Positions 16,049-21,490 of a stretch of DNA of 34,898 nucleotides are shown here, piece after piece. Both the position numbers and the translations under genes were made by a program. The stretch is from Acidimicrobiales bacterium (GTDB lineage Bacteria; Actinomycetota; Acidimicrobiia; Acidimicrobiales; Acidimicrobilacustridaceae), in the NCBI GenBank assembly GCA_026419545.1, contig JANZZE010000010.1, forward strand, positions 1 through 34,898, in the 5' to 3' direction. Below the pieces are notes generated by a model. It was given only the letters and a program-made list of their open reading frames with translations. It searched no databases and was not told where the DNA came from. Numbering within the stretch: the first letter of the stretch is position 1; every line of letters starts with the position of its first letter.

Positions 16049-17593
16049 TCACGGCTCGGGTACTGGTTGGGGAGGTGGAGGGCCGACGTAGCGCGCCGAG
16101 GGCCGGATGATCCGGTTGTCTGCGGCCTGTTCGAGGATGTTGGCACACCAGCCGATCACCCGGCTCGACGCGAACGTCGGTGTGAACAACTCGCGGGGCA
16201 GGCCACAGCGGTCCATCACGACCCCTGCGTAGAACTCGACGTTGGTGTAGAGGTGTCGCCCCGGTTTCAGTTCGGCGAGCGTATCGACCACGGTTCGCTC
16301 CACCTTCTTGGCGAAGTCGACCAGGTCACCCCCCAGTCGCTCGGCCACCGATCGCAGCAACAACGAGCGCGGGTCGTCAGTCTTGTAGACGCGGTGACCG
16401 AAACCCATGATGCGCTCGCCGCTGAGCACGGCGTTTCGGACCCATTCCTCGGCCCGGTCAGGGGTGCCGATCGCGTCGAGCATGTCGAGTGCGCGACTGG
16501 GCGCCCCACCGTGGAGTGGCCCGGAGAGCGCGCCGATCGCCCCGACGACGGCAGCACCGAGATCGGCGCCGGTCGAGGTGATCACCCGGGCCGTGAAGGT
16601 CGATGCGTTGAACCCGTGGTCGATCGTCGAGATCTGGTACTGCTCGATGGCTCGGGCGATCTCAGGCGATGGCACATCACCGCTGAGCATGTACAGGTAA
16701 TTGGCGGCATAGCCGAGATCTGGCCGCGGATCGATGGGATCAGCGCCGTGCCGCAATCGGTACAGCGCCATAATCAAAGTCGGCACCACCGCACAGATCT
16801 GGATGGCGTTCTCCTTCAACTCCTCCAAGGAGATGTCGAGCGACGGCTTGAAATTGGCGTCGGCCGCCACAATGGACACGGCGGTGCGTAACGCGTCGAG
16901 CGGTACGAAGGTGTCACCAGCGGCAGCGATGGCGGGCAACAACGGCTTCACCCGCTCCGGGACCTGCATCAACGGCCGCACCTTGGCTTCGAACGCTGCT
17001 CGCTGCTCGGCATCAGGAAGCGCGCCTTCGAACATCAAGTACCACACGTCTTCGAGCGAGCGCTTCTCAGCCAACTCGACCGCGTTGTACTGCCGGTAGT
17101 GATAGAAGCCTTCTTGACCCCGTACGTCGCCCACCTCGGTTTCAGCGACGATGACCCCGGCCAATCCCTTGGGCGCCTCCATCGCACCTGGCGCCTCGAC
17201 CGGCTCGAGCCGCGCCATGCTCATGAGGTCCCGCATCGTGACGATGCCGACGAGCGAGGAGCGGTCAACAACGGGGATGTGCCGGTAGCCACGCTGCGAG
17301 AGGCGCTCGAAAGCCTTCACTACTGGTTCGCTCGGTTCGCAAGTATCGGGATGCTCCGTCATCCACTCCGACACCTTCGTTGCCGTCGGATCGCCGCCGG
17401 AGGCAGCGAAACGGATGAGATCGCGCTCGGTGAAGATCCCGATCGGCCGGTCACCGTCGACGACCACCACCGACCCGACACCTGCGTCTCGCATCCGAGC
17501 CGATGCATTCGACACGAGTTCCGACGGCAGGGCTGTCACGACCGGGTGGCTCATGACCTCGGCCACCGTCCGGATCACCGCGCTGTCTGCCAT
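16049..17593 (-). CDS. Citrate (or 2-methylcitrate) synthase with N-terminal tandem CBS domains
   Basis: 514 residues. Residues 10-65 and 75-125 are two CBS repeats (VSNASARMRDAGVGSVVVVD, IGIFTERDLI; YRHIPVVDRSSLVGIVTMRDLM), a module that usually senses AMP/ATP or related nucleotides. After a 15-residue linker, residues 141-500 form a complete citrate synthase: GVIVAETEVGDVRGQEGFYHYR, DHGFNASTF, SGPLHGGAP with His361, MGFGHRVYKTDDPR with His400, and NVEFYAGVVM, where Glu453 stands where many synthases have the catalytic Asp. It condenses acetyl-CoA (or propionyl-CoA) with oxaloacetate. ATG 17593 is chosen because GGAGG lies at correct spacing; ATG 17599 directly touches it. The frame is continuous, so the fusion is real. 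The CBS domains suggest energy-charge control of TCA entry (inference). Confidence 0.92.
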   Translation of the reverse strand: MADSAVIRTVAEVMSHPVVTALPSELVSNASARMRDAGVGSVVVVDGDRPIGIFTERDLIRFAASGGDPTATKVSEWMTEHPDTCEPSEPVVKAFERLSQRGYRHIPVVDRSSLVGIVTMRDLMSMARLEPVEAPGAMEAPKGLAGVIVAETEVGDVRGQEGFYHYRQYNAVELAEKRSLEDVWYLMFEGALPDAEQRAAFEAKVRPLMQVPERVKPLLPAIAAAGDTFVPLDALRTAVSIVAADANFKPSLDISLEELKENAIQICAVVPTLIMALYRLRHGADPIDPRPDLGYAANYLYMLSGDVPSPEIARAIEQYQISTIDHGFNASTFTARVITSTGADLGAAVVGAIGALSGPLHGGAPSRALDMLDAIGTPDRAEEWVRNAVLSGERIMGFGHRVYKTDDPRSLLLRSVAERLGGDLVDFAKKVERTVVDTLAELKPGRHLYTNVEFYAGVVMDRCGLPRELFTPTFASSRVIGWCANILEQAADNRIIRPSARYVGPPPPQPVPEP

Positions 17594-17648
17594 CGGCATC
17601 CTCCGTGTTCGTTTGTTCGGAAGGGTCGTTCCGAGCCTACTCGGCTAT

Positions 17649-17772
17649 TCGCCGCCATCGTCCGGCCAGACCGGGTACCGCGACCTTGACGTCCCGCCCG
17701 CGATCACCGGACTCGAGGATTGGCTCGCCGCCATCGTCCGGCCAGACCGGGTACCGCGACCTTGAGGTCCCG
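17649..17772. repeat. 41-bp perfect direct repeat between amidase and citrate synthase genes
   Basis: Positions 17649-17689 and 17725-17765 are identical over 41 bases (period 76); after one mismatch the match continues through GTCCCG to 48 bp. It sits in the 339-base gap 17594-17932, upstream of the CBS-citrate synthase and downstream of the amidase. Apart from this repeat I see no gene or clear promoter in the gap. Confidence 0.9.
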
Positions 17773-19433: not shown

Positions 19434-19545
19434 CGCCCGTCCCCAAAAGGGGCGCTGGCCGGCACTGGGCTCATCGAAACGAGGGGATGCGGGGTGCAGC
19501 GATGCCGGGCGCCCGTCCCCCCAAAGGGCGCTGGCCGGCACTGGG
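19434..19545. repeat. Two 36-bp degenerate direct repeats upstream of the amidase
   Basis: 19434-19469 and 19510-19545 share the frame CGCCCGTCCCC...CGCTGGCCGGCACTGGG (period 76), differing only in the central C/A/G run. A fragment resembling it (CCCCCCA then GGCGCTGGCCG) recurs at 27906-27923 downstream of glnB. The second copy forms one arm of the strong hairpin at 19529-19562. Confidence 0.75.
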
Positions 19546-19588: not shown

Positions 19589-21238
19589 TCAGGGTGCAGC
19601 AGCGACCTCGTTGCCGCTATTCGAGGTTTGGGGTGCCGGGCTGGGGCCGCCCGGTGACAAATTGAAGCGGGCACGAGCGTTGCTTCCCTGACAACCACCA
19701 CCGTCGGTGCCGGAAGCCTGGCCCAGCTGCATGTCGAGCACCGGCGTGGCGCCACTGAACATGCCCCAGGGGCTCTCGCAGCCAGGGACAACCCAAACGT
19801 GGTTCATCCAACCCCAGCTGCCGTTCTGCTTCTTGCCACCAATGGCCTCGCACTGCTGCTCGGACAACGTGGTATCGCCCACCACCATCCCGCCACGGAC
19901 ACACAGCCCGACATGCCGGTGGAAGTGATCGTTCGGACCGGTGAAACCCTGATCCGGTTCGGTCTCGCTCCGGTGGATGACGTAGTAGCTGAGGCCCACC
20001 ACCGAAGCGTCGGGCCCAGTCCCGTCGTAGAGGATCATTTCGGGTTTGTCGATCTCAAACTTGCCGTCGACGTAGGCGAAGTTCATGAAATGGGCGGCGA
20101 TCCCTGGCACGTAGGGGGTCACCGGGACCCAGCCCGCAGCCATGGCGTCCTTGGCTGTCGGGTACCGCAACGCCACTTGGCGGGCCCGCTCGAGTTCGTT
20201 GGCCAACGCCTGACACTCGGCCGGATCAGTCATCGGCTCCCACGCCTGCGGTCCCAGGTGCCCACCGTGGCCACCGTGGTCGTCACCGGACTCCGAATGG
20301 TTGGCGTTGTGGGCGCTCTCGGCCAAGGACATGATGAACGCGTTGTACTCCTCGTCGGAGACGTTGCTCAGCTCGGCAACGAGACGAGCGGCGGCAACTT
20401 CGCCTTCCTGTTTGGCCAGCTCCTGCAGCTTCTGTTGCTTCTCGGTCCACTGCTGGTGTTCTTCGGCGTTGTGCTTCGAGTGGTCGAACCCGTCACCGTG
20501 GCTCGCGTCATGAGCACCACCGTGTACCATGTCATGCTCTCCCCAGAACGAAACCGGGTTGAACCCGAGGTCGCAGCGCTCGCTGGCAGACACCGTCTGG
20601 GCCGCCGCTCCATGGCCATGGTCGTGTCCATCTCCGTGATCGTGGTCAGCACCGGTGGCCAGCTCGCTGCCATGGTCACCATGACTGTCGTGCGCGTGGG
20701 TCTGAGCTGACGGCGAAGCCATGGCCACGGTGGCCGCCACCAGCACGCCGACCGGTAGGACCGAGCCCATCGCCAGCGCCGGACCAGCGATGTTCGCCGA
20801 CAGCGAGGGACGCGCCAGCAGGCCAGCCGCACCGAGCACGAGCACGCCCTCGAAGATCACACACATCAGGTCGATGGTCCCGACGGTTTCCGGGTGCCAG
20901 GCGTGGGCACCGTACGGAAGCCCGGTTGTCCGGCTCATGGCCCACGCCGCGATAAACCCGGCATTGGCAAGGAGACCGAGTTGGAGCCACCGCTTCGTGG
21001 CCCGTGCGCCGGTCGCCACGATGGCGATCGCGAACGCAACCTGGAACCATCCCGCGATCGCAAAGCTGATGCCTTCGGCGAGGCTGTTGCCCGCATGGCT
21101 CGGCACCATGGCGAGGTGGATGGCGCCGGCGCCGGCCGAGAACGCGGCGAGTAGGACTCGCATCGGCATGGCATAGCTGGAACCGGTATCCGCCTTCACC
21201 GGCTCCGCCGGGCTGAAGCTTCCGCTCACTAGGCCCAT
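19589..21238 (-). CDS. Histidine-rich multi-pass membrane protein with unknown exported C-terminal domain
   Basis: 549 residues from ATG 21238, preceded by GGGGGGAG at good spacing. Residues about 25-47, 57-77, 87-102, 120-142 and 152-174 look like five transmembrane helices. Then comes a His/Asp/Gly-rich region (180-210, THAHDSHGDHG and DHDHGDGHDHGHG), more His at 235-262 and 310-328, and a putative coiled segment (EEHQQWTEKQQKLQELAK). The C-terminal domain (about 330-505) has YVPGIAAHFMNFAYVDGKF, MILYDGTGPD, GPNDHFHRH (His437, 440, 442), WMNHVWVVPGCESPWGMFSG and six Cys overall. The His clusters suggest binding of Zn, Ni, Co or Cu; I do not recognise the C-terminal domain. It is divergent from a two-component system and shares a palindromic site with it. 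Could be a metal chaperone, sensor or storage protein. Confidence 0.8.
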   Translation of the reverse strand: MGLVSGSFSPAEPVKADTGSSYAMPMRVLLAAFSAGAGAIHLAMVPSHAGNSLAEGISFAIAGWFQVAFAIAIVATGARATKRWLQLGLLANAGFIAAWAMSRTTGLPYGAHAWHPETVGTIDLMCVIFEGVLVLGAAGLLARPSLSANIAGPALAMGSVLPVGVLVAATVAMASPSAQTHAHDSHGDHGSELATGADHDHGDGHDHGHGAAAQTVSASERCDLGFNPVSFWGEHDMVHGGAHDASHGDGFDHSKHNAEEHQQWTEKQQKLQELAKQEGEVAAARLVAELSNVSDEEYNAFIMSLAESAHNANHSESGDDHGGHGGHLGPQAWEPMTDPAECQALANELERARQVALRYPTAKDAMAAGWVPVTPYVPGIAAHFMNFAYVDGKFEIDKPEMILYDGTGPDASVVGLSYYVIHRSETEPDQGFTGPNDHFHRHVGLCVRGGMVVGDTTLSEQQCEAIGGKKQNGSWGWMNHVWVVPGCESPWGMFSGATPVLDMQLGQASGTDGGGCQGSNARARFNLSPGGPSPAPQTSNSGNEVAAAP

Positions 21239-21254
21239 CGAGACTCCCCCCCGA

Positions 21255-21272
21255 GTCAGACTGGTTTCTGAC
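21255..21272 (-). promoter_or_regulatory. Small leader hairpin of the His-rich gene
   Basis: GTCAGA (21255-21260) and TCTGAC (21267-21272) are perfectly complementary around a 6-base loop. They lie between the palindrome at 21289 and the Shine-Dalgarno region of the gene starting at 21238. It may be an additional half-site cluster or a leader structure. Confidence 0.4.
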
Positions 21273-21288
21273 CACATTCCGGCCAGGA

Positions 21289-21300
21289 TGACTGCAGTCA
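21289..21300. promoter_or_regulatory. Palindromic site TGACTGCAGTCA, His-rich gene side
   Basis: A perfect 12-bp palindrome 51 bases upstream of the start at 21238. A copy with one changed base lies at 21491-21502 before the response-regulator gene. The shared site suggests one regulator, plausibly the adjacent OmpR-type protein, controls both transcripts (inference). The rest of the 320-base gap 21239-21558 shows no gene. Confidence 0.65.
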
Positions 21301-21490
21301 CCAAAAGACTACGAATCGGTCCGTATGATCACCGTAAGGCGCTTCGGAACCGGCCTGACCTGCGCAAACATGACCGAAAACCCGTAAGCTTGGGGTAAGA
21401 CCTGCTCGGCAGCTCAAGGTGCCGACCACGCTATCGGCACGTCAGACCACTAACGCAGGCAATATGGGAGATGCGCCACGCTACGGGGCG

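Follow-up and report, generated by a model that had tools for sequence, protein, structure and literature searches.

A citrate synthase fused to a tandem CBS pair in Acidimicrobiales and related actinobacteria

The fused gene and its product

The window analyzed here is a 34,898-nt stretch of the Acidimicrobiales bacterium assembly GCA_026419545.1 (contig JANZZE010000010.1), and all coordinates refer to it. On its minus strand, positions 16049–17599 form one open frame that encodes 516 aa when read from its first ATG at 17599. The second ATG (Met3, at 17593) is the better start because a GGAGG lies 6 nt upstream of it, within a Shine–Dalgarno-like ACGGAGG region at 17599–17606 of the same strand that was identified by direct reading of the sequence; from Met3 the gene occupies 16049–17593 and its product has 514 aa. 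A tandem CBS pair covers approximately aa 9–129 (17215–17575, minus strand; the two domains themselves at approximately aa 10–127), where Pfam finds two CBS stretches (PF00571) in tandem with 96.4 bits, the arrangement of a Bateman module. It is followed by a linker at aa 129–152 (17144–17215, minus strand) and by a complete citrate synthase domain at aa 145–501 (16097–17167, minus strand), which matches the Citrate_synt profile (PF00285) over its entire length (1–357 of 357) with 380.8 bits against a gathering score of 27 and thus belongs to the citrate synthase superfamily. The open frame and the Pfam matches bear out the claim of an earlier note on this DNA that an uninterrupted frame links two CBS repeats to a full citrate synthase. 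GC and GC3 are level on both sides of the junction.

In the AlphaFold2 model of the fusion protein, the two CBS modules and the citrate synthase are all well folded, and the linker (129–152) has low model confidence and is presumably flexible. A structure search returned citrate synthases without CBS in all of the 50 matches listed.

The intergenic region upstream of the fused gene contains a 48-base sequence present twice (98%; 17649–17696 and 17725–17772) with a spacing of 76 bases, the core of which has no further copy in the genome. A second repeat pair, likewise spaced by 76 bases, is located at 19434–19545, and a 571-aa open frame without a Pfam match (19592–21304, minus strand) lies upstream of an amidase gene. 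Comparison by Pfam of the flanks of the fused gene in the loci of G043, G050 and G049 revealed no gene in common.

The CBS pair as a putative ligand-binding module

The CBS pair in the window contains the motifs T57-E58-R59-D60, R106-H107-x-P109 and T121-x-R123-D124. T57, E58, R59, D60, R106, H107, P109 and R123 are present in all 43 diverse fused proteins compared, position 121 is Ser or Thr throughout this set, and D124 is kept in 40 of the 43. Conserved T/S-x-x-D site motifs combined with basic phosphate contacts (TERD, S/T-x-R-D, RHxP) are the sequence signature of an adenosine-binding CBS pair, and ST2348, MJ1225 and TTHA0829 are among the solved CBS pairs nearest to it. Because the ligand-contact motifs are conserved, it is likely that the pair binds an adenosine-containing ligand, which may be AMP, ADP or ATP or Ap4A, with c-di-AMP a less likely candidate. 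AcuB, a CBS-CBS-ACT protein that binds Ap4A, has comparable Arg-His and Asp residues at its site, and Arg, His and Asp residues of this sort contact the phosphate and ribose there (PMC13039410). The earlier note had interpreted the pair as an adenine-nucleotide sensor of energy charge. The adenosine-type site remains a likely part of that interpretation, with TERD and RHxP present in all 43 fused proteins, whereas the assignment to energy charge does not stand, as Ap4A (the ligand of the CBS pair in AcuB, PMC13039410) or a different adenosine compound would fit equally well.

The CBS pair could also serve mainly as a dimerization or protein-docking module instead of switching catalysis directly in cis. 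DarB of B. subtilis, a c-di-AMP target, exerts its control over pyruvate carboxylase through protein contact, which is relieved by c-di-AMP (PMC8822347), and a linker modeled with low confidence, and probably flexible, would be compatible with such a role. We consider this scenario unlikely, as pure dimerization would not require the ligand-contact residues that are invariant among the fused proteins. Control in cis is the best-supported reading of the mechanism in our analysis. CBS-fused enzymes under the control of adenine nucleotides are an established class, exemplified by the CBS-pyrophosphatase of Moorella (Jamsen 2007, listed in PMC11210485), and CBS pairs that bind Ap4A are described in pyrophosphatase, IMPDH and AcuB (PMC13039410).

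AcuB and DarB, which are CBS-type or nucleotide-sensing proteins, steer central carbon enzymes in trans, whereas the CBS pair in the window is fused to the enzyme itself. In CBS-pyrophosphatases and IMP dehydrogenase the CBS pair is inserted within the enzyme, in contrast to its N-terminal position in the window protein. These enzymes belong to other catalytic families but also combine a tandem CBS pair with a metabolic enzyme, and their ligands are adenine nucleotides or Ap4A (PMC11210485, PMC13039410).

Active site, subfamily and metabolic place of the enzyme

The citrate synthase domain retains H328, H363, H402, R411, R480 and R499 and carries Glu455 where a catalytic Asp is usually found. 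Residue roles were transferred from the pig enzyme, whose catalytic Asp (D375) aligns with Glu455. The catalytic His pair (H363, H402) and the CoA/oxaloacetate residues R411, R480 and R499 do not vary among 65 fused and 39 plain relatives. The same 65 of 65 fused and 39 of 39 plain proteins have Glu at the position of the catalytic Asp, which places them outside the classical GltA/pig type. This position is Asp in GltA-type enzymes, in Thermus citrate synthase and in the helix-turn-helix partner described below. The closest solved structure, B. subtilis CitA (PDB 2c6x; ~41% identity to the fusion enzyme, without a CBS pair), has the same catalytic Glu, and the substitution therefore marks a subgroup inside the citrate synthase superfamily. 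With Glu in place of the catalytic Asp, the rate and the substrate may differ from those of an ordinary citrate synthase.

Among NCBIfam subfamilies, TIGR01800 (“2-methylcitrate synthase/citrate synthase II”) gives the best match, with 344.7 bits compared to a cut-off of 421.3; the enzyme part is treated here as related to this curated model and not as a member of it. Plain orthologues of the Streptomyces type (citrate synthase II; TIGR01800/PRK12350), which lack CBS, are 60–66% identical to the fused enzyme. TIGR01800 covers both activities, and an additional enzyme beside GltA is a usual setting of methylcitrate synthases. These observations would agree with an enzyme that is mainly a 2-methylcitrate synthase acting on propionyl-CoA, in which case the CBS pair would tune the use of propionate or odd-chain carbon and not Krebs-cycle entry. 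This seems rather improbable to us, given that the closest solved relative, CitA, is annotated as a citrate synthase, that the NCBIfam equivalog models for the bifunctional enzyme score far below their cut-offs, and that methylcitrate-cycle genes are absent among the ten Pfam-annotated neighbours.

The prevalence of Glu455 in fused and plain relatives alike, against Asp in GltA and the helix-turn-helix partner, might also point to a condensing enzyme that has diverged, or to a regulator, instead of an efficient citrate synthase, and Caulobacter citrate synthase is reported to have an activity-independent regulatory role (PMC7083601). However, B. subtilis CitA shares the Glu and is named a citrate synthase, and the remaining active-site residues that were checked are all kept, which makes this possibility very unlikely.

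The question raised by the earlier note of whether the genome has a second, plain citrate synthase is answered by a GltA-type gene, present as a fragment at a contig end and 75–86% identical to the GltA of relatives. The GltA type belongs to the same reaction class and has the catalytic Asp, no CBS and 31–36% identity to the fused enzyme. GltA-type citrate synthases of other bacteria are regulated by NADH or ATP. In a comparison of 61 genomes, GltA was nearly universal, genomes with the fused gene carried it in addition to GltA, and those with just one citrate synthase had GltA only; one genome (G046, 70% complete) has only a partial second copy. Because plain GltA co-occurs with the fused gene and single-citrate-synthase genomes have GltA only, we take the fused protein, on the basis of gene content, to be an accessory citrate synthase. 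The proposal that the CBS pair sits on the enzyme of TCA entry has to be abandoned, as GltA is found both in this genome and in the relatives with the fused gene. Among the four citrate synthase genes in Streptomyces coelicolor, citA (SCO2736) is described as the main one (PMC12323332). The neighbour SCO5831, which shares an upstream region with SCO5832, suggests that SCO5832 is the orthologue of the family studied here.

Distribution, origin and possible meaning of the fusion

Full-length CBS–citrate synthase homologues occur in the closest relatives with 79, 76, 74 and 73% identity. The survey of genomes covered Actinomycetota. Of 395 genomes sampled from its own class (Acidimicrobiia), at least 47 carry this architecture, which a profile search confirmed on the fetched loci. 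It also recurs in 19 genomes from other classes of the phylum, including 3 of 3 genomes of one separate small class, and identities across both sets are 47–79%. Most of the named records with fused homologues are metagenome bins of Acidimicrobiia or Acidimicrobiales. The identical architecture recurs at full length in dozens of independent assemblies, of which some consist of one or a few contigs, and this leaves practically no chance that the join is an assembly or frameshift artefact, the outcome that the earlier note had named as fatal to its reading.

One genome (G467, L165 and L166) contains both fused and plain copies of this citrate synthase family, and another (G487, L139) has an extra CBS-containing open frame of ~385 aa upstream near the fused gene. 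Independent fusions on plasmids were considered and rejected, as the two matches that extend well past the enzyme part, in Nonomuraea and Thermomicrobium, have no CBS domain.

Both halves of the fusion protein appear from rough dN/dS estimates to be under purifying selection (0.12–0.46 in the CBS part and 0.11–0.20 in the enzyme part, with dS near saturation). Identity among relatives is lower in the CBS half (55–74%) than in the enzyme half (77–83%), so the CBS half drifts faster yet is constrained. In a tree of CBS pairs, 31 of 31 fused pairs are separated by a single branch (support 99/83; recovered in 98% of 200 bootstrap trees) from 21 stand-alone pairs of relatives, a small set chosen by similarity to the CBS pair in the window. 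A citrate synthase tree of 110 rows, built by a quick method, shows strong clustering of fused and plain proteins with six state changes. Its outermost members are the fused proteins of the separate class, and fused proteins surround the Streptomyces-type plain orthologues and also occur within that mostly plain group; some inner branches are weak. A single early fusion followed by repeated losses of CBS fits both trees best, and the fused architecture is, to judge from these comparisons, old and conserved. The CBS pair would not be needed for catalysis, since several lineages dropped it and retained the enzyme.

Plain orthologues are arranged head-to-head with a partner gene in 32 of 44 cases. 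The partner joins a helix-turn-helix (HTH_17/MerR) domain to a citrate-synthase-like domain (for example L065:2341-3585, L157:104-1414, L016:252-1787 and L114:4053-6908) and is possibly a metabolite-sensing regulator. The fused orthologues show the opposite trend, 56 of 61 having no such partner, with too few independent tree events for significance. The partner is absent at the fused locus in the window.

With a join that is real, old and common to many relatives, an adenosine-type signal probably acts as the switch of the fused enzyme. We give roughly even chances to an accessory citrate synthase of the B. subtilis CitA/actinobacterial citrate synthase II type in which the fused N-terminal CBS pair sets the activity. 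In such a scheme, an adenosine-containing ligand would bind the CBS pair and alter how the CBS dimer packs, and the short linker would pass this change on and shift the citrate synthase dimer in its movement between open and closed states. Extra acetyl-CoA-consuming capacity could then go up or down with the state of the cell, with basal Krebs-cycle flux running through GltA.

The literature searched, in which coverage of subscription journals is thin, yielded no mention of a CBS–citrate synthase enzyme, and the architecture is probably already present, unremarked, in public protein databases. More tentatively, we speculate that these proteins represent an ancient actinobacterial citrate synthase lineage that an adenosine signal (perhaps Ap4A) gates directly via the fused CBS pair, a form of control undescribed for citrate synthase, and that the plain Streptomyces-type enzymes are descendants without CBS, paired instead with the helix-turn-helix citrate-synthase-like regulator. 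Natural controls exist in the form of fused and CBS-less orthologues at more than 60% identity, and the group concerned is a large, mostly uncultured set of actinobacteria. Citrate synthase is a textbook point of metabolic control, to which the CBS fusion would add a new type of built-in sensor.
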